44,146 bases of DNA from Microbacterium sp. GTDB lineage: Bacteria > Actinomycetota > Actinomycetes > Actinomycetales > Microbacteriaceae. Below, one piece after another: positions 31,933 to 44,146 of this stretch. Both the position numbers and the translations under genes were made by a program. Position 1 is the stretch's first letter; the number at the start of each line of letters is the position of its first letter. The DNA is taken from contig NZ_JAFKIP010000008.1 in the NCBI RefSeq assembly GCF_017305435.1, positions 251,216-295,361 on the forward strand, written 5' to 3'. Below the pieces are notes generated by a model. That model was not told where the DNA came from. It did not search any database and saw nothing but the letters and a program-made list of their open reading frames with translations.

Positions 31933-32508
31933 GTGACTCAGCCGACCGCGTACACGGGCCGCCCGGTGACGCCGGCCCCCGGCGCCGAGGCGCGCGAGCT
32001 GCGTGTCGCGCGGGTGCGTGGTCACGCGCGCCGATTGTTCTGGTGCGCGGCGGTTCTCGTCGTCGCCAGCGCCGCCGTCGGCTACTTCACCGGGAACCTT
32101 CCCGCACCCTTCGAGGACTGGATGCTGTGGGCGGCGGCCGGGCTCGTCGTGCTGCTGCTCGTCGTCGTCCCGTTCCTGCGCTGGTTCGCCCGCACGTACA
32201 CCGTCACGACGCGGCGGGTCGTCGCGCAGTCCGGGGTCCTGCGGCGCACGCGCACCGAGATCGGGCATGCCCGCGGCTACACGATCAGCGAGCGGCGTGG
32301 GCCGATCCAGCGGATGTGGGGCGCGGGGACCCTCACTCTCTCCAACGGCGTGGATGCGCCGCTGCGGATGGTCGACATCCCCTCGGTGCGTCTCATGAAC
32401 GAGGCCCTCGCCGACCAGGTCGAGGTGAGCCAGATCCTCGCTCACCGCGACTCCCATGTGATGCCGATCGTCCCCGGTCCGCCCCCGCCCCTCCCGACCG
32501 ACCTCTGA
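31933..32508 (+). CDS. PH-domain (bPH2) membrane protein
   Basis: 191 residues. Two transmembrane segments near residues 35-53 and 63-85 are followed by a cytoplasmic bacterial PH-like domain (formerly DUF304). The domain has [38 protein letters not shown] and [15 protein letters not shown]. This family is usual in actinobacteria between birA and purK; its role is not established. The GTG start is set by the leaderless spacing. Confidence 0.85.
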
Positions 32509-32576
32509 GCGGGCGCACGTCGGTCTCAGTGGCCTCCGCCGACCTGGGAAGATGGATGCCGACGGAAAGGGATGCC

Positions 32577-33692
32577 ATGGCGTTGACACTCGGAATCGTC
32601 GGAGGCGGCCAGTTGGCGCGCATGATGATCGCACCCGCCGTCGAGCTCGGCATCGACGTGCGCGTGCTCGCGGAGGAGCCGGGCATGTCGGCCGCGCTCG
32701 CCGAAGCCGCGACGGGCGATTACCGCGACCTCGAGACGGTGCGCGCGTTCGCCCGCAGGGTCGACGTCGTGACCTTCGACCACGAGCACGTGCCGCAGGA
32801 GGTGCTGCGGGCCCTCGTCGCCGACGGGGTGGCCGTGCACCCGGGGCCCGACGCGCTGCAGTTCGCGCAGGACAAGCTGCGCATGCGCGCGCGCCTCGCC
32901 GAGCTCGGTGCGCCGCAGCCCGAATGGGCGGAGGTGTCGGATGCCGCGCAGCTGCGGGCCTTCCTCGACGCGAACGGAGGCCGTGCCGTCGTGAAGACCC
33001 CGCGCGGCGGCTACGACGGCAAGGGCGTGCGTGTCGTGTCGCACCCGGACGAGGTCTCCGACTGGTTCGGCGACGGGCCGCTGCTGGCGGAGGAGCTCGT
33101 CGAGTTCTCGCGCGAGCTCGCGCAGCAGGTCGCGCGCCGCCCCTCGGGCGATCTCGTCGTGTATCCCGTCGTGGAGACCGTCCAGCGCGGCGGCGTCTGC
33201 GCCGAGGTCATCGCGCCGGCCCCGCCCGGCGCTCCGCGCCTCGCGGAGGTCGCCGCCCGCATCGGCACGTCGATCGCGGAGGGCCTCGGCGTCACCGGCA
33301 TGCTGGCAGTGGAGCTCTTCGAGACGACCGACGAGCGCCTGCTCGTCAACGAGCTCGCGATGCGCCCGCACAACAGCGGGCATTGGGGCCAGGACGGAGC
33401 GATCACGGGGCAGTTCGAGCAGCACGTGCGGGCCGTGCTCGACCTGCCGCTGGGTGACCCGTCGCCACGGCAGCCGTGGACGGTCATGGTCAACATCCTC
33501 GGCGGACCGGTCTCCGACACGCTCGAGAGCCGGTTCCCCGCGGCGCTGGCGGCGCACCCCGAGGTCAAGGTGCACACGTACGGCAAGGCGCCGCGCCCCG
33601 GCCGCAAGGTGGGTCATGTGAACGCCGTCGGCGACGACCTGGATGCCGTGGTCGAAGGCGCCCGCGCCGCGGCGGCGTTCTTCGCCGGCTGA
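32577..33692 (+). CDS. purK: 5-(carboxyamino)imidazole ribonucleotide synthase
   Basis: 371-residue ATP-grasp enzyme of purine synthesis. It converts aminoimidazole ribonucleotide, bicarbonate and ATP to N5-carboxyaminoimidazole ribonucleotide. The N-terminal motif LGIVGGGQLARMM, the ATP-grasp segment VVKTPRGGYDGKGVRVV and NELAMRPHNSGHW are diagnostic. The ATG at 32577 has a GGAAAGGG ribosome-binding site; an in-frame ATG seven codons upstream (32556) is possible but lacks one. The product is used by PurE, encoded 55 bases downstream. Confidence 0.95.
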   Translation: MALTLGIVGGGQLARMMIAPAVELGIDVRVLAEEPGMSAALAEAATGDYRDLETVRAFARRVDVVTFDHEHVPQEVLRALVADGVAVHPGPDALQFAQDKLRMRARLAELGAPQPEWAEVSDAAQLRAFLDANGGRAVVKTPRGGYDGKGVRVVSHPDEVSDWFGDGPLLAEELVEFSRELAQQVARRPSGDLVVYPVVETVQRGGVCAEVIAPAPPGAPRLAEVAARIGTSIAEGLGVTGMLAVELFETTDERLLVNELAMRPHNSGHWGQDGAITGQFEQHVRAVLDLPLGDPSPRQPWTVMVNILGGPVSDTLESRFPAALAAHPEVKVHTYGKAPRPGRKVGHVNAVGDDLDAVVEGARAAAAFFAG

Positions 33693-34279: not shown

Positions 34280-35779
34280 GTGAGCGTGTCGGCCCCGCCC
34301 CGCCCGGGCATGCCCGGCGGTGCGCCGCGCGGCCCGTCGTCGCAGGGCGCACGACAGGCCGGGGTCATCCTGGGCGACCAGCCGCTCCGGCGCCCCGATA
34401 CGCGCTCGCCTCAGGTGATGACGCGGCGGGCGTGGTGGCTCGTCGTGCTGAACTTCCTGCTGCCGGGTGCGGCGCAATCGCTCGCGGGCAGCCGCCGGCT
34501 CGCGCGGGTGGGGCTGACGGCGACGCTCGTCATGTGGCTGCTCGTCATCGCCGGCATCGGCGTGACGATCGTGTCGCCGGGTCTTCTCACGTCGCTCATG
34601 ACGAACGGGTTCTTCCTGCTGCTCGTGCAGATCGTGCTGCTCGCGTACGCGGTCCTCTGGGTCGTGCTCACGATCGACACGCTCCGACTCGTGCGGCTCG
34701 TGAAGCTGAAGCCGAAGGCGCGGCCGCTCGTGGCGCTCCTCGCGATCGTGGGGCTCGTGATCGGGGGCGGTGGGGTGACGTATGCCGCGCAGCAGCTCAT
34801 CGCGCCGGCGCGTGAGGCCCTGGCATCCATCTTCACGAACAACGATCCGCCCGTGCCGCCCTCCAACGGGTACTACAACTTCCTGCTGCTGGGTGCCGAT
34901 TCGGGCCTCGGGCGCGACTCGATGCGGTTCGACAGCATCTCGGTGGTCTCGGTGAACGCGGAGACGGGCGGGGTGCACATCACCGGCATCCCGCGCGATC
35001 TCGCGTACGTGCCGTTCGCCGACGGGCCCATGCACGACCTCTACCCCGACGGTTTCGAGGGTCACTACTCGGAGACGTGCGGGTGGGGTCCCGGGATCAA
35101 CCAGCTCATGAACGCCGTCGAAATCTGTCAGGACGACGGCGGCACAGGCCTGTATCCGGATGCCGCGGCGCACTCCTCGACGCCGGCGATCGAGGCGACG
35201 AAGTCTGCCGCGGAGGGCATCCTCGGCATCGAGATCCCGTACTACGTCTTCGTCGACATGAAGGGCTTCGCCGACATCGTCGACGCGCTCGGCGGGGTCG
35301 ACATCACGGTGCAGGAGCGGCTGCCCGAGGGCGGCGGGCCGTCGTATGAGGGCGAGCCCGCCGAGGACTGGGCGATCGGCTGGATCGAGGCCGGTCCTCA
35401 GCACATGGACGGCGACACCGCGCAATGGTACGCGCGGTCGCGCTACACGACGAGCGACTGGGACCGGATGCGCAGGCAGCGCGAGCTGCAGCAGGCGATC
35501 CTCGCGCAGGCGAACCCGGCGAACGTGCTCCTGCGGTTCCAGCAGGTCGCGGCGGCGGGCGAAGACCTCGTGCAGACCGACATTCCGAACGGGCTGCTGT
35601 CGTTCCTCGTGCCCCTCGCGGCGAAGGCGAAGGAACTGCCCGTGCAGACGCTCGAGCTCACTCCCGAGGGTGCCGGGATCGACACCGACGAGCCGACCGC
35701 GGATGAATACGCGCACGTGCGCGACCTCGTCCAGCAGAACCTGTACCCGCCGTCGCCGACGCCCACGCCGGAGGGCTGA
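34280..35779 (+). CDS. LytR-CpsA-Psr (LCP) family glycopolymer ligase, polytopic
   Basis: 499 residues. Instead of the single anchor of most LCP proteins, it has four or so hydrophobic helices (about 50-180). The extracellular LCP domain (about 195-420) has YYNFLLLGADSGLGRDSMRF, HITGIPRDLAYVPF and ARSRYTTSDWDRMRRQRELQ, containing the Arg and Asp residues that bind the polyprenyl pyrophosphate. LCP enzymes transfer wall polymers such as teichoic acid or arabinogalactan from lipid carriers to peptidoglycan. The GTG start has a GGGGGAG ribosome-binding site. It is followed after 4 bases by a glycosyltransferase gene, so it may attach the glycan made by the downstream cluster. Confidence 0.9.
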   Translation: MSVSAPPRPGMPGGAPRGPSSQGARQAGVILGDQPLRRPDTRSPQVMTRRAWWLVVLNFLLPGAAQSLAGSRRLARVGLTATLVMWLLVIAGIGVTIVSPGLLTSLMTNGFFLLLVQIVLLAYAVLWVVLTIDTLRLVRLVKLKPKARPLVALLAIVGLVIGGGGVTYAAQQLIAPAREALASIFTNNDPPVPPSNGYYNFLLLGADSGLGRDSMRFDSISVVSVNAETGGVHITGIPRDLAYVPFADGPMHDLYPDGFEGHYSETCGWGPGINQLMNAVEICQDDGGTGLYPDAAAHSSTPAIEATKSAAEGILGIEIPYYVFVDMKGFADIVDALGGVDITVQERLPEGGGPSYEGEPAEDWAIGWIEAGPQHMDGDTAQWYARSRYTTSDWDRMRRQRELQQAILAQANPANVLLRFQQVAAAGEDLVQTDIPNGLLSFLVPLAAKAKELPVQTLELTPEGAGIDTDEPTADEYAHVRDLVQQNLYPPSPTPTPEG

Positions 35780-35783
35780 GGCC

Positions 35784-36911
35784 GTGCCCGCGGTGCTGAG
35801 GGTCGTGCTCGACCAGCTGGTCGCGCCGACGCATGCCGATCTGGGCATGGCGTCGCGGGAGCTGACGCGCGCTCTCGTACGGGCGGCGCCTGCGGGGTGC
35901 GTCGTCGCGGGGATCGTGCCCGCGGCATCCGACGTCGCGGGGGTTGTCGAGGGCGCGGTGCCGGGTCTCGCGGATCTCTCGCGGATGGCGCTTCCGCGGC
36001 GGGAGCTCGCGGCGTCGTGGCAGCTCGGGGTCGCGCCAGGGGTGGGCGGCGGCATGATCCATTCGCCGACGCTCCTCGCTCCGCTCGTCAAACACGATCG
36101 CGTGCACGCGAGCGATCAAACCGTCGTCACGCTGTGGGATCTGGATGCCTGGGACCGGCCCGCCGAGCTCGCGCGCGGCGCCGTCACGTGGCACAAGGCG
36201 ATGCTGAAGCGCGCGGTGCGCTTCGCGGACGCCGTCGTCGTGCCGACGCACGCCATGGCGGTGCGGGTGTCGGAACTCGGATCGTTCGGCGATCGGGTGC
36301 GGGTGATCGCGGGCGCCGCGCCCGAGGGGTTCGCCGTGCCGGTCGATGAGATCGGTCGACGGCGTGCGCTGGACCTGCCGGAGGGCTTCGTGCTGGTATC
36401 GGGGTCGTCGGCACCGTCGGCGGGCGTGTCGGATGCCTTCGCTGCCGTCGTCGCCTCCGGCATCGATCTGCCGGTCGTGGTGCTGGACGCGCCCGAGGGG
36501 GATGAGCCAGGGGTGTTGGATCTCGCCGCGGCGGCGGGTCTCGGCGAGGGGCACGTGCACGTGCGAGGCGCGCTGGAGGATGCCGATCGCGCGGCCGTAC
36601 TCGGCGGTGCGGTTGCGCTTCTCGCGCCGTCACGGCTGTCGGCGTTCCCGTGGCGGGTCGTGGAGGCGCTCGCGGCGGGGGTGCCGGTCGTGGCATCCGA
36701 CACCGACGTGCACCGCGAAGTCGTGCTCGACGGCGGAGTCTTCGCGGATGCGGCGGAAGGCTTGGGGGAGGCGCTCGCCGGCGTGCTGGCCGGCGTGTTG
36801 GCCTCGACGACGGCGGTCGAGCGCTTCGGCGTGCTCGCGGCGGACCGCGGGAGGGCGTTCTCGTGGGCTGGTGCTGCCGAGCGTGTGTGGCAGCTGCACG
36901 CTGACCTGTAG
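35784..36911 (+). CDS. GT4-like glycosyltransferase
   Basis: 375 residues with a GT-B fold. The N-terminal acceptor half ends in WHKAMLKRAVRFADAVVVPT. The C-terminal donor half has LLAPSRLSAFPWRVVEALAA and GVPVVASDTDVHREVV, equivalent to the E-x7-E donor site of GT4 enzymes. The donor sugar is unknown. The GTG start follows the LCP stop by 4 bases. Base composition, and the presence of several GGATGCC words, match the host chromosome, unlike the genes that follow. Confidence 0.85.
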   Translation: MPAVLRVVLDQLVAPTHADLGMASRELTRALVRAAPAGCVVAGIVPAASDVAGVVEGAVPGLADLSRMALPRRELAASWQLGVAPGVGGGMIHSPTLLAPLVKHDRVHASDQTVVTLWDLDAWDRPAELARGAVTWHKAMLKRAVRFADAVVVPTHAMAVRVSELGSFGDRVRVIAGAAPEGFAVPVDEIGRRRALDLPEGFVLVSGSSAPSAGVSDAFAAVVASGIDLPVVVLDAPEGDEPGVLDLAAAAGLGEGHVHVRGALEDADRAAVLGGAVALLAPSRLSAFPWRVVEALAAGVPVVASDTDVHREVVLDGGVFADAAEGLGEALAGVLAGVLASTTAVERFGVLAADRGRAFSWAGAAERVWQLHADL

Positions 36912-36932: not shown

Positions 36933-37877
36933 GTGGGTCATCGAGTCGCTGTAGTCGTTCGTACCAAGAACCGCCCGGAGTTCTTGAGACGAGCCCTTGC
37001 CGATATCGCGGCGCAGACGTACGGCGACCTCGAGATCATCGTCGTGAACGATGGTGGCGATCACGCGTTGGTGACTCGGGTGATCGCCGAATCAGACGTC
37101 GCTGAAAATGTCACGGTATGCGACACCGACCACCCCAGCGGACGCAGCGCTGCCGCGAACCTCGGCGTGAGCGCTGCCCAAACCGAGTTCATCGCATTGC
37201 ACGATGATGACGACCTGTGGCATCCCGACTTTCTCGCCGACGGTGTCGCGTGGCTTGATGCTCATCCGGGATACGGCGGTGTCTCGATGACCACCGAGAT
37301 TGTCTACGAGGAGCTTCGGGACGGCGCGTGGGGTGAGATCGAGCGGGTGCCGTTCTGGAATGGCATGACGCACATCTCGCTCGGAGAGATGCTCGTCGTC
37401 AATCGGATCGTCCCGATCTCCTTCCTCTACCGTCGGGCATTGCACGATGAGCATGGCGGCTACGACGTCACTTTGGATGCTGTGGAGGATTGGGATTTCT
37501 ATCTTCGCGTGATGTGCACACATCCGATCGGATACCTGGCGGGGCCGCCGCGTGCATTCTGGACTCAGCGTCCGTCTGCCAGTGGTGCGGCAGCAAACAG
37601 CATGTTCGAGCTGGCTTCAGAGCACGCGCGGGACGACGCTATCGTCCGCGACAGAGCGCTCTCTAGGTGGATAGCCGACAACGACCTGGCACTGCCGCTC
37701 TACATTGGATCTGTCGAGAAGCGACTGCGTCACGAGTTCTCGGTCGAGCTCGCATCGCAGCTGGAGCGACAGCGCCATGAGATCGTGGGCTCGATGTACG
37801 ACCACCACCCATTGTGGAGGCGGCTGCGCAAGCTTCGTGCGCGCTTCAGTCGGTCCCGCAGCACAGACGGCCAATGA
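36933..37877 (+). CDS. GT2 family glycosyltransferase
   Basis: 314 residues with a GT-A fold. AVVVRTKNRPEFLRRALADI opens the nucleotide-sugar domain, IIVVNDGGD follows, and HDDDDLWHPDFL contains the DxD metal motif. VEDWDFYLRVM is the likely catalytic-base region. The donor and acceptor are unknown. Its stop overlaps the next gene's start by 4 bases. GC content is lower than upstream genes and codon use is less biased, a sign of transfer. Confidence 0.9.
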   Translation: MGHRVAVVVRTKNRPEFLRRALADIAAQTYGDLEIIVVNDGGDHALVTRVIAESDVAENVTVCDTDHPSGRSAAANLGVSAAQTEFIALHDDDDLWHPDFLADGVAWLDAHPGYGGVSMTTEIVYEELRDGAWGEIERVPFWNGMTHISLGEMLVVNRIVPISFLYRRALHDEHGGYDVTLDAVEDWDFYLRVMCTHPIGYLAGPPRAFWTQRPSASGAAANSMFELASEHARDDAIVRDRALSRWIADNDLALPLYIGSVEKRLRHEFSVELASQLERQRHEIVGSMYDHHPLWRRLRKLRARFSRSRSTDGQ

Positions 37878-40162
37878 TCGGCAGCAAAGTGAGGTCGCGG
37901 GTTCGTGCGATGCGCGATGCTCCGATCGTGGGTGCGCTCGTGCGGCTGGTGGACCGCGTCTGGTGGTACCGAAAGATTCGGCGATCCGGCCTGGTCGATC
38001 GGGATTTCTATGCCGCCCAACTCGGCTGGCGGTCGATCTCCGCCAGCGCGGCCACGTGGCACTATGTCTCTCGCGGATTCCGCCGAGGTCTCAGCTTGAA
38101 CCCACTCTTCGATGAGATTTTCGCGGGAGGAGGGTTGCCGGAGGTCTTTCGGGTGCCCGCCCTTTACGCGTACCTGGTCGGCGAACGCGATACGATCGCG
38201 GTCAATCCGTGGTGGGATGCTGTTGGCGCAGGAGGCGCCGTGGAAGGTCCGGCACTGGAACACGTGTGGACGAACCGTGGGCTCGAACTCATCTTGCGGG
38301 CGGGTGATCGAGAGCGACGAATGACGGTCACGGCCCTCCGGGAACTGGCCATCCGCGCGGCTCGGGAGTGGTCGTCGATGCGATGGTCGTCAGGCAGCGA
38401 AGATGTAGCTGCAGAATCCACGGCTCCGTATACCTTGGTGCGCTTCGTCCAGGCTCGCGATCGCAGGTACCACCGCAAGCTCGAACAGGTCGCACGGCTC
38501 GTGCAAGCAAACAAAATAGCGGCGTCGGCCGCGATGATCGAAGCCGATGCCTCGCAGTGGGTTTCCGCGACGGTGCTCTCTGAGATCGAGCCGGGTATCC
38601 GCTTCACGCTTTACAGAGCCCCCAACTCTTGGGGCGAAGTCGTTGCCTCCGAGACAAGGACAGTGCCAACGATCAATCCTCTTGTCGTCCTCGACGCACG
38701 GGCAGATTTCGACGACGTCGAAGTTGAGTCGCTCGCGCGTGAGGGGGGAAGTTCGGTGGCATTCCCGGCTCATCGAGCTCAGGATGGGACGCTCGTCGGA
38801 TTGGGTGCCGCGAGAATTGGCGCGCGTACCTACCGCATCCTCCGCGGCCATCCGGTCGAGGATGCTTCGGTGATAGCGATGCGAGTGCTCGACGTGCCGA
38901 TCGCGGTCGGGCGCAGCTTCGCTATGCCCTTCTCCCAGCTCTTCGAAGGGGGTGGCATTCAGGACGATGACGAGGACATCGAGGCGCTTTCGCTCCGCAT
39001 GAATCGACGAGGCGCGATGCCCCGGGTTCTGCTCGACATCGTTCCCGTCTTGGAGGAGCCGGATCTGCCCGATTGGACCACACGTCACGCGTACGCTCAC
39101 GGTATACAACCGGCGGCCGAGGACGATCGGCAGCGAGCTGAGGAGATCATTTCCTTTGCGGGGTTCGATGTTCGCGGCTGGAGCACTACGCGATCGGGAC
39201 GGCCAACTCCGGCGCTGGAATGGCGGCGTCCACATTCGGACGCGCAACGCTGGGCCATCAAGATCTGTGCTCCGGCCGGCCGAGCAGGAGCTGTCTGGGG
39301 GGACACTCATTTTGCTCGCGGTCTGGCCAGTGCTCTGCGACGTCGTGGACACATGGTCGTGATCGATGCCTACGACGCCCGGGATCGTGACTCGGGCTAC
39401 CTCGACGACGTAAGCGTTGCAATCCGTGGGCCCTACCGGATGAATCCGCCGCGATGGGGAGTGTCGTTGGAGTGGATCATCAGCCACCCGGACGAGGTGT
39501 CTCGCTCGGAGGTCGCGCGCCACGACGGTGTGTTCGCCGCCTCATCCGGATGGTCCGAACGCATGAGCAAGAAATGGGGGCTCAGCATCCGATCCCTTCT
39601 CGAGGCGACCGACACCGATCTCTTCCATCCACGTGGGCTCGAGCGCGGGTCGGACATCGTCTTCGTGGGCACAGCTCGAGGCATCGCGCGCCCTAGTGTG
39701 GTCGCGCCTTTGTCGGCCGGCATCCCCGTTAAGGTTTATGGTCCGGACTGGCGACCATTCATCTCTCAGTCCGCGATTGCTGCCCGCTCGATCCCGAACG
39801 TCGAGTTGCCTGCCCGATACGAGACGGCCGCGGTTGTGCTCAACGATCAGTGGCCTGCCATGCGCCGCGAGGGTTTCATCGCGATGCGTCCTTTCGATGC
39901 CGTTGCGGTCGGTGGCCGGGTGATCTCCGAGGAGGTCGAGGACATCGAGGAGATCTTCCACGGCGCGGTCGTGACCTACCGAGATGCATCCCATCTTGTG
40001 GAGCTGCTTCGAACGGATCCGTCGGAGCTCTTCCCCTCGGACGAGCGCTTGCGCGAGATCGCCGCGGATGTTCGACGCGAGCACTCGTTCGACGCGCGCG
40101 CGGCCGTTCTGGCCGCAGCAGCCCAAAGTGCTGCGCCCGTCGTCGACCGTGCGCGAGGATAG
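37874..40162 (+). CDS. Large multidomain glycosyltransferase (CgeB/GT4-like C-terminus)
   Basis: 762 residues, coupled to the GT2 gene (ATGA). The N-terminal 70 residues include DFYAAQLGWRSIS and WHYVSRGFRRGLSLNPLFDE, similar to a short module found ahead of many polysaccharide glycosyltransferases. The middle (about 170-430) is not recognised. The C-terminal third is GT-B-like: VWGDTHFARGLASALRRRGH, then SLLEATDTDLFHP, the nucleotide-sugar region VFVGTARG, and GFIAMRPFDAVAVGGRVISE, which resembles the Glyco_trans_1_2/CgeB domain. It may combine two activities. It lies between GT2 and GT9 enzymes in the putative heptose-glycan cluster. No signal peptide or membrane helix is seen. Confidence 0.75.
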   Translation: MIGSKVRSRVRAMRDAPIVGALVRLVDRVWWYRKIRRSGLVDRDFYAAQLGWRSISASAATWHYVSRGFRRGLSLNPLFDEIFAGGGLPEVFRVPALYAYLVGERDTIAVNPWWDAVGAGGAVEGPALEHVWTNRGLELILRAGDRERRMTVTALRELAIRAAREWSSMRWSSGSEDVAAESTAPYTLVRFVQARDRRYHRKLEQVARLVQANKIAASAAMIEADASQWVSATVLSEIEPGIRFTLYRAPNSWGEVVASETRTVPTINPLVVLDARADFDDVEVESLAREGGSSVAFPAHRAQDGTLVGLGAARIGARTYRILRGHPVEDASVIAMRVLDVPIAVGRSFAMPFSQLFEGGGIQDDDEDIEALSLRMNRRGAMPRVLLDIVPVLEEPDLPDWTTRHAYAHGIQPAAEDDRQRAEEIISFAGFDVRGWSTTRSGRPTPALEWRRPHSDAQRWAIKICAPAGRAGAVWGDTHFARGLASALRRRGHMVVIDAYDARDRDSGYLDDVSVAIRGPYRMNPPRWGVSLEWIISHPDEVSRSEVARHDGVFAASSGWSERMSKKWGLSIRSLLEATDTDLFHPRGLERGSDIVFVGTARGIARPSVVAPLSAGIPVKVYGPDWRPFISQSAIAARSIPNVELPARYETAAVVLNDQWPAMRREGFIAMRPFDAVAVGGRVISEEVEDIEEIFHGAVVTYRDASHLVELLRTDPSELFPSDERLREIAADVRREHSFDARAAVLAAAAQSAAPVVDRARG

Positions 40163-40298: not shown

Positions 40299-41561
40299 AT
40301 GGAGATGAACGAACGAATGACGATACGAACTGCGCTCCGAAAGATCGAATGGCATGTGAACGCCATTCGTCACCGAGATCCGCTGTCACCGCGAACATTC
40401 TTGCGCCTCTTCGGTAGCGTGCGCAGACGACCGTGGGATACCCGTCGTAGCCCGAAAAGAGTTCTCGTGCTGCGCAGCGACGAGATCGGCGACACGGTCG
40501 CGACCCTCGCCTTGTTGGCGCCGATCCGAGCTCAGTGGCCGGACGCGGCAATCCACCTCCTGGTGAAGCCCGGTCCTGCGACTGTGTTCCACGCCATCAC
40601 GACCATCGATCGGATCATTCCATGGACGCCCATCGGCGAAGGCTCTGCTCTCAAGCGTCAGGTTCTCACCGCGCGGCAGGCTGTTCGGCGGTTCGGTCTA
40701 CGGGGATATGACCTCGCTGTGCTTCCGCGGTGGGACTTCGATGACACACCGATCCGTTACCTGGCCGCGGCTTCGCGGGCGCGCTCAGTCGTAGGCTTCG
40801 CCCCGGTTCCCGAACGCGAGCCAGTATGGCTGGGCGATCAGAGTCAACTGCTCACCGACGTAATCCCTCGCGGTGATGCGCCACTGCTCTCAGTCCAGCA
40901 GCTGGAACGCATTGGCCAGTATCTGGGACTTACGTGGTCGGACCCTGCCGACCAGCCAGTCGGTCGCGAGCTCTTCGACGTGGAGGATGAGCGCCGCGCG
41001 ACTGAGTTGGCGGCGCTTCCGCCAGCGCCCGGTCTGGTGGTCGGGATTGGCATCGGTGCCCGCAATGCGAAGCGGCAGTGGCCTGTGTCGGAGATCGCCT
41101 CCGCGCTTTTCCAGCTTTCTGCCGCAGGACCTGTTTCCGCGCAGATCCTCGGCGGCGAGGTAGATACGGAACGGGCGAAGGAGCTGGCCGGCCTGCTGAG
41201 AGAGCGCGGCGTCTACGCCGCGGATCTGGCAGGTGCGCTCACGTTGAGCGAGAGTGCCGCGGCCATTTCCACGTGTGCTGTCTTCTTGGGCAACGACTCC
41301 GGGCTGCAACACATCGCCAGCAGTCTCAACATCCCCACGGTGGTCGTCACCTGCCATCCAGCAACCGGATCACCGTGGAGTGACAATGCGCCCGAGCGCT
41401 TCGGACCGTGGTCTCAACGTGCCGCCGTCCTTCAACCAGCGCAGCCGGCGGACGGATGTGCTGACGAATGCCTGGCTGACGAGCCGCACTGTATAACGGC
41501 AGTCCGCGCTTCAGACGTCGCCACGGCCATCAACAACGTGCTCAGCTCGGCTGCAGGCTGA
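40299..41561 (+). CDS. GT9 family (heptosyltransferase-like) glycosyltransferase
   Basis: 420 residues. It matches the ADP-heptose:LPS heptosyltransferase family: VLVLRSDEIGDTVATLALLA at the N-terminus, GIGIGARNAKRQWPVSEIAS for donor binding, and FLGNDSGLQHIASSLNIPTV with the conserved D-S/T-G-x-x-H motif. GT9 enzymes usually transfer L-glycero-D-manno-heptose from ADP-heptose; monoderm members are rarer and poorly studied. The neighbouring hldE and gmhA genes make a heptose donor likely. In-frame ATGs at 40305 and 40317 make the exact start uncertain. Its C-terminus has a Cys-rich patch (CADECLADEPHC). Confidence 0.88.
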   Translation: MEMNERMTIRTALRKIEWHVNAIRHRDPLSPRTFLRLFGSVRRRPWDTRRSPKRVLVLRSDEIGDTVATLALLAPIRAQWPDAAIHLLVKPGPATVFHAITTIDRIIPWTPIGEGSALKRQVLTARQAVRRFGLRGYDLAVLPRWDFDDTPIRYLAAASRARSVVGFAPVPEREPVWLGDQSQLLTDVIPRGDAPLLSVQQLERIGQYLGLTWSDPADQPVGRELFDVEDERRATELAALPPAPGLVVGIGIGARNAKRQWPVSEIASALFQLSAAGPVSAQILGGEVDTERAKELAGLLRERGVYAADLAGALTLSESAAAISTCAVFLGNDSGLQHIASSLNIPTVVVTCHPATGSPWSDNAPERFGPWSQRAAVLQPAQPADGCADECLADEPHCITAVRASDVATAINNVLSSAAG

Positions 41562-41624
41562 GTCGGATACTCTCTTTCGGTCGGCACCGAGCGTGCTGGC
41601 CCCGTCAACGTCTGGACCCATCTG

Positions 41625-43109
41625 ATGCCTGCGCCCTCACCAGTCACGCCGCACGATGTCCTCGCTTTCGAGTCGGCGCGGGTGATCGTCATCGGCGACG
41701 CGATGCTCGATAGGTATGTCGACGGCGCAGTGACGCGGATCTCTCCTGAGGCTCCGATCCCGGTGCTGCAGGTCCGGGAAGATCGTAGTGTGGCCGGTGG
41801 CGCTGCTAACGCCGCGATGAACATCGCAGGGCTGGGGGCGACGACGACGCTCATCGCTTCGTGGGGTGTGGATGAGTCGGGTCGCGAGCTAGAGCGTCTG
41901 CTCATTGGCGCGAACGTCGCTTTCACCCGGATTACGCGCGGGTCGGCGCCGACGATCGAGAAGCTCCGCGTGGTGGCGGGGCAACAGCAGATCGTGCGCG
42001 TTGATCGTGAGGACATCGCTCCCCTGGATCCAGACGGTGAGACCGCGGTTCTCGATGCGCTGACGGACGCGCTGAGCTCGCGGAGGGGCGGGACCGCCAT
42101 CGTCATCTCGGACTATGCGAAGGGTATGCTCGCGGAGTCGACCGTCGCGAAGATCATCGCCGTCGCCGACGCGCACGCCATTCCCGTCGTTGTCGACCCA
42201 AAGTCCGTCGACATCGGAAAATACCGTGGCGCAGCGGTCGTCAAGCCGAACTTCGCCGAGGCGGTGCAGATGGCGAGAGTCGCGGCGGCGCCACCGGACG
42301 AGGCAACACTCGGCGTCATCGCTGACCGTCTCTCCTCCGACGGGATCGGAGCGCTCGCGGTGTCGATGTCCGCACTTGGCGTCGAGGTCATCGAGGGCGA
42401 CACCCGGACGCGGATCCCCACGCGCGCGCGACTCGTCTCCGATGTTTCTGGCGCCGGCGATTCGATGATTGCGGGCATCGCGGTCGGTCTGGCGAGCGGG
42501 TTGAGTACGCTCAAGGCTGTCCAGGTCGGGAACATGGCCGCGGGTATCGCCTGCGGGCGTCCGGGTACGGCGGTAGTGACCAGAGCGGACCTCCTCGATG
42601 AAATGTTGGTGGAAGCGTCGCCGGAGCGTCGCCCGGGGACAATTGAGGATTGGGGCGAGCTTGCGAGATTGGTCAGCGTCGAGAAGGCAGCCGGCAGGAC
42701 TGTCGTGTTCGCGAACGGCGTCTTCGACCTCCTGCACGCCGGTCACGTAACGCTTCTGAAGGCGGCGCGCGCGCTCGGTGACGTGCTCGTCGTGGGCGTG
42801 AATTCCGATGCATCGACGGGGCGCCTCAAAGGCCCGACGCGTCCGCTTCAGCCTCAATCGGATCGCATGGCTGTCCTGGATGCGGTCCGATACGTCGACT
42901 TCGTCACCGTTTTTGAGCAGGACACCCCGCGCGAGTTGATCCGTACCATTCAACCCGACGTCATCGTCAAGGGCTCCGACTATCGTGCAGAAGAGGTCGT
43001 CGGCGGGGAAGACGCCAAGGAATGGGGGGGACGCGTCCATATCGTGGACCTACTCGATGGAGTGTCGACGACGCGGCTGGCTCATGGCGAGCAGGTTCGC
43101 CGCAGCTGA
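41625..43109 (+). CDS. hldE: Bifunctional heptose-7-phosphate kinase / heptose-1-phosphate adenylyltransferase
   Basis: 494 residues. The N-terminal PfkB-type kinase (about 10-325) has GDAMLDRYVDG, GGAANAAMNIAGLGA, the anion hole DVSGAGDSMIAG and VVVDPKSVD. It would phosphorylate D-glycero-beta-D-manno-heptose-7-phosphate at C1. The C-terminal nucleotidyltransferase (about 355-490) has FANGVFDLLHAGHVTLL with the HxGH motif, and VKGSDYRAEEVVGG; it would add AMP after the C7 phosphate is removed. Both halves appear intact and the length matches E. coli HldE (477). It implies the ADP, not GDP, branch of the heptose pathway. The start has no clear ribosome-binding site; a GATACT -10-like sequence lies about 55 bases upstream. 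Confidence 0.92.
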   Translation: MPAPSPVTPHDVLAFESARVIVIGDAMLDRYVDGAVTRISPEAPIPVLQVREDRSVAGGAANAAMNIAGLGATTTLIASWGVDESGRELERLLIGANVAFTRITRGSAPTIEKLRVVAGQQQIVRVDREDIAPLDPDGETAVLDALTDALSSRRGGTAIVISDYAKGMLAESTVAKIIAVADAHAIPVVVDPKSVDIGKYRGAAVVKPNFAEAVQMARVAAAPPDEATLGVIADRLSSDGIGALAVSMSALGVEVIEGDTRTRIPTRARLVSDVSGAGDSMIAGIAVGLASGLSTLKAVQVGNMAAGIACGRPGTAVVTRADLLDEMLVEASPERRPGTIEDWGELARLVSVEKAAGRTVVFANGVFDLLHAGHVTLLKAARALGDVLVVGVNSDASTGRLKGPTRPLQPQSDRMAVLDAVRYVDFVTVFEQDTPRELIRTIQPDVIVKGSDYRAEEVVGGEDAKEWGGRVHIVDLLDGVSTTRLAHGEQVRRS

Positions 43110-43141
43110 CGCTGCGAGCTGGGAGAGGGAAAGGCAAGAGT

Positions 43142-43723
43142 ATGGGACTCGTTCAGGAAAACCTCCGGGAGAACGCCCGACGGATGAGCGCATTGGCGGA
43201 CGACGCCGAGTTCGCCGCGGCGTTCGATAGCGCCGCGCACATCATGGTGTCGGCACTGCGCGGCGGCGGAACATTGTTCGCGTGTGGCAACGGCGGATCG
43301 ATGACGAACGCGCAGCACTTCGCAGAGGAACTCACGGGTCGATTCCGAGGGAACCGGCCGCCGCTGCGAGCCATGGCGATCTCCGACCCCTCCCACCTGA
43401 CATGCGTAGCGAACGATTACGGGTACGAGTTCGTCTTCTCGAAGTTCGTTGATGCATTCGCAAAGCCTGGCGATGTGTTGTTCGCGCTGAGCACGAGCGG
43501 CAAGTCTCCCAATGTCCTCCGCGCTGCGGAGTCTATGAAGGCGGCCGGTGGACTCGTTATCGGATCATCAGGTGTCGTGTCCTCGCCCCTCGCTCAGGTG
43601 GCGGATGTCACATTCGCGCTCGGCTCGAGCCGGTGGGCCGACCGTATCCAGGAATCGGAGCTCGTCGTGATTCATTCATTGATGCAGGCGATTGAGCACG
43701 GGCTGGGCTACTCCGCCGAGTGA
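43142..43723 (+). CDS. gmhA: Sedoheptulose-7-phosphate isomerase
   Basis: 193 residues, SIS-domain isomerase that turns sedoheptulose-7-phosphate into D-glycero-D-manno-heptose-7-phosphate, the first heptose-specific step. Diagnostic parts are FACGNGGSMTNAQHFAEELT, GRFRGNRPPLRAMAISDPSH and ALSTSGKSPNVLRAAESMK, with zinc and phosphate ligands. The start ATG has a GGGAAAGG ribosome-binding site. It lies 32 bases after hldE, whose kinase uses its product. Confidence 0.94.
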   Translation: MGLVQENLRENARRMSALADDAEFAAAFDSAAHIMVSALRGGGTLFACGNGGSMTNAQHFAEELTGRFRGNRPPLRAMAISDPSHLTCVANDYGYEFVFSKFVDAFAKPGDVLFALSTSGKSPNVLRAAESMKAAGGLVIGSSGVVSSPLAQVADVTFALGSSRWADRIQESELVVIHSLMQAIEHGLGYSAE

Positions 43724-43733
43724 ATCCAGGGAG

Positions 43734-44056
43734 CTACCCCTCCAGCGCGCTGCCCACCCCGCGTGCGAACTCCGCAAGACTCGCGAATGTCACGTCTGCT
43801 TCCGGGTCGTTCCGATGGTCGATCCGAAACACTGCGCATCCCCCCGTCTCGGCGGCGAGCCGACGACCCATCTCGACGTCGGAATCTGTGTCGCCAATCA
43901 TCACGGAGAGCGATGCTCTGATTTCGGGGTGGGCTTCGAGGTACTCAAGAGCCATGCCGGGATTGGGCTTTCGGCAAGGACAGTTGTCGCTTGCGAGGGG
44001 TGAGTCCCATAGCGTGGTGTCACTTCCCGCGGGGGTCTCGTCGTTGTAGACGATGG
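43734..44056 (-). pseudogene. gmhB: GmhB-like HAD phosphatase, C-terminal fragment, apparently interrupted
   Basis: Reading the minus strand from near 44056 gives VYNDETPAGSDTTLWDSP, then NCPCRKPNPGMALEYLEAHP and MIGDTDSDVEMG, ending at a TAG at 43734. CxCRKPxPGM and GDxxSD are the zinc-loop and acidic motifs of HisB/GmhB-type phosphatases, which remove the C7 phosphate of heptose-1,7-bisphosphate. The N-terminal half with the nucleophile (DxDGT) and the VTNQ motif is missing. Upstream of VYND the frame stays open but no longer resembles the family, and it runs into a different element. The simplest reading is an insertion at about 44055; the rest of the gene should lie beyond the element. 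An internal ATG at 43955 would give only 73 residues. Confidence 0.65.
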
Positions 44057-44146
44057 GGGGCCACCGTGGGATGACCAGTTGTTTCCGGCAAGAAGCAAAG
44101 AAGAGATCCCACGATGACCCAGAACCAGTCTGCCTTGACGACCCTG
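44057..44146 (+). mobile_element. Probable left end of an insertion sequence
   Basis: From about 44057 the gmhB-like reading stops. A G-run (GGGGGGCC) is followed by a short AT-richer leader containing the 8-base inverted pair CGTGGGAT (44065-44072) and ATCCCACG (44106-44113), then an ATG at 44114. An IS is the simplest cause of a broken gene with a new start codon facing inward from the break. The exact terminal inverted repeat cannot be fixed with only one end visible. Confidence 0.45.
44114..44146 (+). CDS. Start of a putative transposase, truncated by the window end
   Basis: Eleven codons (MTQNQSALTTL) are visible. The start resembles, from memory, N-termini of IS256-type transposases, but eleven residues do not allow a firm call. 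The ATG follows the inverted pair directly, with no clear ribosome-binding site. Confidence 0.3.
   Translation, partial: MTQNQSALTTL

Follow-up and report, generated by a model that had tools for sequence, protein, structure and literature searches.

Why a Gram-positive actinobacterium should carry genes of the route by which Gram-negative bacteria make ADP-heptose is the question raised by the right-hand end of a 44,146-nucleotide stretch of a Microbacterium sp. genome (contig NZ_JAFKIP010000008.1, positions 251,216 to 295,361; this whole stretch is called the window here). The first-pass annotation had read a set of GmhA, HldE, a GmhB-like phosphatase and a GT9 glycosyltransferase there, and had proposed a heptose-containing wall glycopolymer as the product. 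Our analysis supports such a product through homology, synteny and the fact that the locus also encodes an LCP ligase and an ATP-binding cassette (ABC) exporter, and we consider it probable that the genes are a heptose cassette within a cell-wall glycopolymer locus of a Microbacterium-like actinobacterium. The genes for GT9, HldE and GmhA are intact, adjacent and head to tail on the plus strand (positions 40299-43723), but the GmhB-like gene is present in the window only as a C-terminal piece, cut by an insertion sequence (IS). The coordinates of all features are summarized in Table 1.

The three intact genes encode clear full-length homologues of the named enzymes rather than chance matches. 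GT9 is the sole PF01075 match (E<=0.01) in the genome, can be aligned with the solved heptosyltransferase II 1psw and is 62-70% identical to its relatives; the stretches GD, KxxWP and NDSGxxH, which we take to be important GT9 motifs, are invariant in a six-member alignment. HldE matches the HldE model over its full length with 430.2 bits (8.6e-129), where the strict cut-off is 521; against the E. coli enzyme its identity is 42% across 473 positions. Its translation contains the HAGH and SGAGD stretches, and its adenylyltransferase domain scores 183.3 bits, just above the curated cut-off of 181.5. GmhA was taken from position 43142, the raw open reading frame (ORF) being longer and starting at 43022; its top-scoring model is NF001628, and its closest solved matches are the phosphoheptose isomerases 1x94 and 2i22, presumably from Vibrio and E. 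coli.

The first-pass annotation had suggested a search for export genes past position 44146, where the window and its contig (C9) end inside an IS256-family element. The 8-bp target duplication CTTGCGAG pairs this end of C9 with the end of another contig, C5, and a Wzm-type permease and an ATPase with a Wzt C-terminal domain were found on C5. From the IS onward, C5 encodes a 692-amino acid (aa) protein, an LGFP-repeat protein, a GT2, an SGNH-domain acyltransferase, a short-chain dehydrogenase/reductase (SDR) and an RmlC-like protein; further on lie the permease and the ATPase, RmlB (above its cut-off) and an RmlA-type nucleotidyltransferase. On C9, GT2 and GT4-like enzymes had been placed downstream of the LCP ligase. 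The LCP ligase, the GT2 and a large glycosyltransferase stand by their Pfam matches, but the GT4-like assignment relies on weak models only. Taken together, C9 and C5 look like an ABC-exported polysaccharide locus beside an LCP ligase.

We compared the locus within the genus. The order LCP-GT4-GT2-...-GT9-HldE-GmhA-gmhB is conserved in 8/8 related loci, with gmhB convergent to GT9-HldE-GmhA in all of them; the large glycosyltransferase between GT2 and GT9 is missing in one (L115). The eight comprise genomes G007 and G034 of our genus sample and six close loci from M. hominis, M. enclense, M. testaceum, Microbacteriaceae PS02066 and two Microbacterium metagenome-assembled genomes (MAGs). These six came from a non-exhaustive scan of genome contigs with two peptide patterns, which returned 36 loci, six at 73-75% identity and the next best at 44%; they point to Microbacterium as the nearest named relative, and are possibly the same genomes as some in the genus sample. 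Window-type HldE (at least 74% identity) occurs in 8 of 149 genus genomes, this one counted, whereas another 6 genomes carry a different HldE (36-40%) alone and G007 and G484 have both kinds. For comparison, 14 genomes were hand-picked from 32 cassette-free genus genomes (G031 has a different HldE elsewhere). Homologues of LCP, GT4, Wzm and Wzt lie within the 20-kb stretches compared in 14/14, and a GT4 homologue lies downstream of LCP both in these 14 and in the 8/8 related loci with the cassette; HldE, GmhA and GT9 have no match at E<=1e-6 in the 20-kb stretches of the 14. Since LCP, GT4, Wzm and Wzt are kept in the cassette-free genomes, where HldE, GmhA and GT9 are not matched, the cassette amounts to an optional sugar module within an otherwise fixed LCP-GT4-Wzm/Wzt locus. 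Four other clusters (L089, L092, L093 and L094, in G007, G031, G057 and G039) contain GmhA together with two HldE-like paralogues, about 34-44% identical to window HldE, and the two paralogues of G057 fall into different HldE groups of the 47-row tree described below; these clusters would be a different, putative heptose system.

Several observations weigh against a heptose-containing wall polymer. GT9 reaches none of the curated equivalog cut-offs for lipopolysaccharide (LPS) heptosyltransferases I, II or III (best match, heptosyltransferase II, 57.4 bits; cut-off 134.6), the HldE kinase domain scores 282.4 bits, under its cut-off of 345, GmhA also falls below its curated cut-off, and gmhB is interrupted in the window strain itself. 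GT2-like and large-glycosyltransferase-like genes are present without HldE in some genomes and are therefore not heptose-specific. On C5, RmlC scores 79.1 bits against a cut-off of 155.75, the domain behind the RmlA assignment is a general nucleotidyltransferase one, and for the SDR near RmlC no RmlD model gave a match at E<=0.001, so that rhamnose is only a probable constituent.

The heptose might instead enter a secreted capsule, a glycoprotein or a natural product that is not anchored to the wall. Excerpts of a commentary name septacidin in Streptomyces and heptosylated proteins in E. coli as destinations of ADP-heptose, and in two further actinobacterial loci (L119, L121) a different HldE has weak GT9-like matches close by. 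However, the locus here is built around an LCP ligase and a polysaccharide exporter of the ABC type that has the Wzt C-terminal domain, whether or not the cassette is present, and we regard these products as unlikely. It is much less probable still that HldE acts on another sugar, with GmhA serving another purpose: HldE makes ADP-beta-D-mannose in vitro according to excerpts of PMC10948575, but GmhA, gmhB and GT9 accompany HldE in 8/8 related loci.

If, as we prefer, the cassette serves a wall polymer, homology and gene order lead us to infer the enzyme activities, the polymer and its heptose as follows. The HldE kinase domain would form the beta-1,7-bisphosphate, GmhB would remove the 7-phosphate, and the heptose would be used in the D,D form, without HldD. 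GT9 would then transfer heptose onto a lipid-linked glycan, which other transferases of the locus would extend, probably with rhamnose; after export through Wzm/Wzt, the LCP enzyme would join the glycan to peptidoglycan. The first-pass annotation had seen no HldD in the window and had named D,D-heptose as the form that could be used. The absence extends to the assembled genome (10 contigs), where the best match to the HldD model reaches 94.6 bits against a cut-off of 274.6, and to 0/8 genus genomes above the cut-off, this one included and three of the eight carrying the cassette; the model exceeds the cut-off in 2/14 control genomes. The SDR on C5 (L033:41-907) was considered as HldD and rejected at 29.9 bits. 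With no HldD over the cut-off, the D,D form is the one expected. As for the nucleotide, excerpts of two commentaries state that Arg at position 5 of the STT motif, (F/L)XXGXSTT, marks the promiscuous STTR5 nucleotidyltransferases, accepting CTP or UTP, although one of them notes that this Arg is not strictly required for promiscuity. The motif of window HldE and two orthologues is LLDGVSTT, without the Arg, so ADP is the expected nucleotide.

The interruption of gmhB was then considered. Neither the first-pass GmhB-like gene as a complete gene nor the ORF at 43734-44144 as a phosphatase gene could be maintained, because the reading frame enters the IS and the ORF is a chimera with IS sequence. 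The N-terminal piece of the GmhB-like gene lies on C5 (L033:9522-9842). Both pieces are open as far as the IS, which fits a recent insertion, and gmhB is a single open frame in 7/7 other genus genomes carrying the cassette and whole in 8/8 related loci read (G007 and G034 are counted in both sets). Five left and five right IS ends all pair by 8-bp target duplications (5/5 pairs), and the sole plasmid record matched by the IS end carries an annotated IS256-family transposase stretch from Arthrobacter at 76.8% identity. The five copies of the element break the assembly (ends of C1-C6, C8 and C10, plus window 43998-44146), and the duplications give the contig joins C9-C5, C4-C2, C1-C8, C3-C10 and C6-C2.

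The cut implies that the window strain either has lost the phosphatase step or carries it out with another enzyme. In the former case the locus would be dead, with no ADP-heptose made, and either bisphosphate would accumulate or the polymer would lose its heptose. The split gene with its duplicated target, whole in every other carrier and related locus, speaks for such an outcome, but the GT9, HldE and GmhA frames remain open, according to excerpts of PMC9302095 E. coli and Klebsiella suffer only a partial defect when gmhB is lost, and the genome has a second intact GmhB-like gene (GmhB2), whose identity to the two gmhB pieces is 58% and 42%. We therefore consider a dead locus possible but rather doubtful.

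GmhB2 belongs to an operon in a low-G+C stretch of contig C3 (L108:7638-11321; about 429638-433321 of this contig in genome G000), which encodes GmhA2, GmhB2, an HddA-like kinase (317.7 bits; cut-off 600), an HddC-like guanylyltransferase (156.3 bits; cut-off 300) and a WecB/TagA/CpsF-family transferase. The solved relatives of the kinase include 3k85 and 4n3o, entries that are named heptose phosphate kinases, ranked behind putative sugar kinase entries, and from its predicted enzymes the operon is of the GDP-heptose type. Among the 149 genus genomes, only the window's own has a match to the HddA model (E<=1e-50), and none of the 14 control genomes has one. For the wall-polymer cassette, the missing phosphatase step would most simply be carried out by GmhB2 of this separate operon. 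According to the available excerpts, GmhB enzymes favour one anomer but the H. pylori enzyme acts on both (PMC8204981), and the second domain of HldE is strict for the anomeric form (PMC10948575). On these grounds, and with the partial effect of gmhB loss in other bacteria, GmhB2 may plausibly stand in for the cut gmhB. A more tentative proposal, which we hold to be somewhat unlikely, is that GmhB2 took over the phosphatase step first, relaxing selection on the gmhB of the ADP cassette and letting the IS destroy it. If so, a single Gram-positive organism would supply two different surface glycans, with ADP-beta-heptose and GDP-alpha-heptose, through one phosphatase common to both pathways. The IS-cut gmhB and a second GmhB in one genome would offer a natural test of GmhB anomer strictness.

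To examine the origin of HldE, we reconstructed phylogenetic trees of 38 and 47 rows. The window itself (L043) was removed from both trees, L142 (branch 3.61) from the second, and eight duplicates were also removed; the motif filter missed the HldEs of several loci (e.g. the G039 pair), which are in neither tree. Nine Microbacterium sequences grouped together (100/100) in the trees, and in both they lay outside the groups holding most other actinobacterial rows. In the 47-row tree they belonged to a 21-row set (99/93) that also contains rows from E. coli, Edaphobacter, Planctomyces and Alphaproteobacteria, as well as one actinobacterial MAG row on a long branch, L118. The 38-row tree does not resolve their tie to Gram-negative rows. 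A single actinobacterial clade (35 rows versus 11, L118 omitted) was not rejected by the approximately unbiased (AU) test (P = 0.221). The HldE phylogeny, which the first-pass annotation had proposed together with one of GmhA as a way to find the donor group, favours a Gram-negative donor but does not prove it. The G+C content of the cassette genes, from GT2 to GmhA, is 61-66%, compared with 72% for window positions 1-36000. However, GT9, HldE and GmhA have 70-72% in G007, and hldE has 71% in M. hominis and 68% in G034. A recent foreign origin was therefore not accepted on G+C content alone, and any transfer was probably old.

How far the cassette resembles known systems depends on the part compared. 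It shares GmhA, a didomain HldE, a GmhB-like protein and GT9 with the Gram-negative heptose route, but here no HldD exceeds the cut-off, the setting is an actinobacterial LCP/Wzm-Wzt locus, and gmhB is cut by an IS. As with the GDP-heptose-type surface glycans of Gram-positive bacteria or mycobacteria (for Mycobacterium, the abstract of PMC7705670), the heptose of the cassette would come from sedoheptulose 7-phosphate, whereas the cassette has a PfkB/adenylyltransferase HldE instead of HddA and HddC, neither of which was seen in the window cassette by profile search; an operon of that type lies separately on C3. Tang et al. (2018, 2022) reportedly described the septacidin ADP-heptose genes and the tridomain NDP-heptose synthetases of actinobacteria. 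These are likewise ADP-heptose enzymes of actinobacteria, but the window HldE is a 494-aa protein of two domains and GmhA has its own ORF, so there is no tridomain fusion, the setting is that of a wall glycan, and most of the other actinobacterial HldEs sampled group apart from the window HldE.

The first-pass annotation had treated the pathway as foreign to actinobacteria and a Gram-positive source of ADP-heptose as notable. The genes are real, but the surprise was overstated and the foreignness was not supported: the HldE adenylyltransferase domain (E<=1e-25) was found in 52 of 396 actinobacterial genomes (47 above the cut-off), so that an HldE-type enzyme is no rarity in the phylum, and published work already covers the use of ADP-heptose in Streptomyces. 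According to excerpts of two commentaries, enzymes for NDP-heptose are widespread, and septacidin is made from ADP-heptose in Streptomyces. What is new is the wall-locus setting in Microbacterium, the distribution as an optional module, and the IS-cut gmhB in the sole sampled genome with a second heptose pathway. No description of a heptose cassette in Microbacterium walls was found in titles and abstract openings, subscription literature being mostly outside reach; the excerpts of PMC10978784 yielded no heptose data, and in those of PMC2943079 a heptose-containing S-layer glycan is named solely in the reference list. Our results suggest that heptose of the LPS type is incorporated into a wall polymer in some Microbacterium species by means of an optional cassette; if true, ADP-heptose, the ALPK1 ligand, would gain a Gram-positive source. 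Excerpts of PMC12137129 tie the effects of ADP-heptose to Gram-negative gut bacteria and report no effect of antibiotics against Gram-positives, so that a Gram-positive source is not favoured in that gut setting.

Table 1. Features of the heptose cassette and its surroundings (positions in the window)
Feature	Position	Strand	Evidence or remark
PurK, left neighbour; true start probably downstream of ORF start	32043..33692	+	ATP-grasp, PurK_C domains
LCP-family glycopolymer ligase	34280..35779	+	PF03816 8.4e-23; TIGR00350 68.2 bits, cut-off 62.3
GT4-like glycosyltransferase, start uncertain	35916..36911	+	weak GT4 models only
GT2 glycosyltransferase	36933..37877	+	PF00535 2.7e-21
Large glycosyltransferase, C-terminal Glyco_trans_1_2 domain, start uncertain	37814..40162	+	PF13524 1.2e-12
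GT9, probable heptosyltransferase	40299..41561	+	PF01075 5.9e-14, above gathering score
HldE, putative bifunctional heptose 7-phosphate kinase / heptose 1-phosphate adenylyltransferase	41625..43109	+	PF00294, PF01467
GmhA, putative sedoheptulose 7-phosphate isomerase	43142..43723	+	4.8e-53, 179.7 bits, cut-off 265
C-terminal piece of interrupted gmhB-like phosphatase gene, 87 residues	43734..43997	-	HAD-IIIA/GmhB models
8-bp target-site duplication, left copy	43990..43997		same 8 bp after IS right end, end of C5
IS256-family element, left end; contig stops inside	43998..44146		147-149 bp common to five contig ends

Some neighbouring genes were also compared. LCP gave one match per genome (E<=1e-60) in 17/17 genus genomes searched, and purK lies to its left in 13 of the 14 chosen genomes without the cassette, a BPL-like gene taking its place in L157. 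The 692-aa protein of C5 (L033:7244-9322) contains extended hydrophobic stretches, matches nothing in Pfam or NCBIfam at E<=0.001, and is about 26% identical to proteins of related loci. The LGFP-repeat protein of C5 (725 aa, L033:4735-6912) has six LGFP repeats, and 13 of the 14 cassette-free genomes have a protein homologous to it in whole or in part next to the wall locus, within the 20-kb stretches compared.

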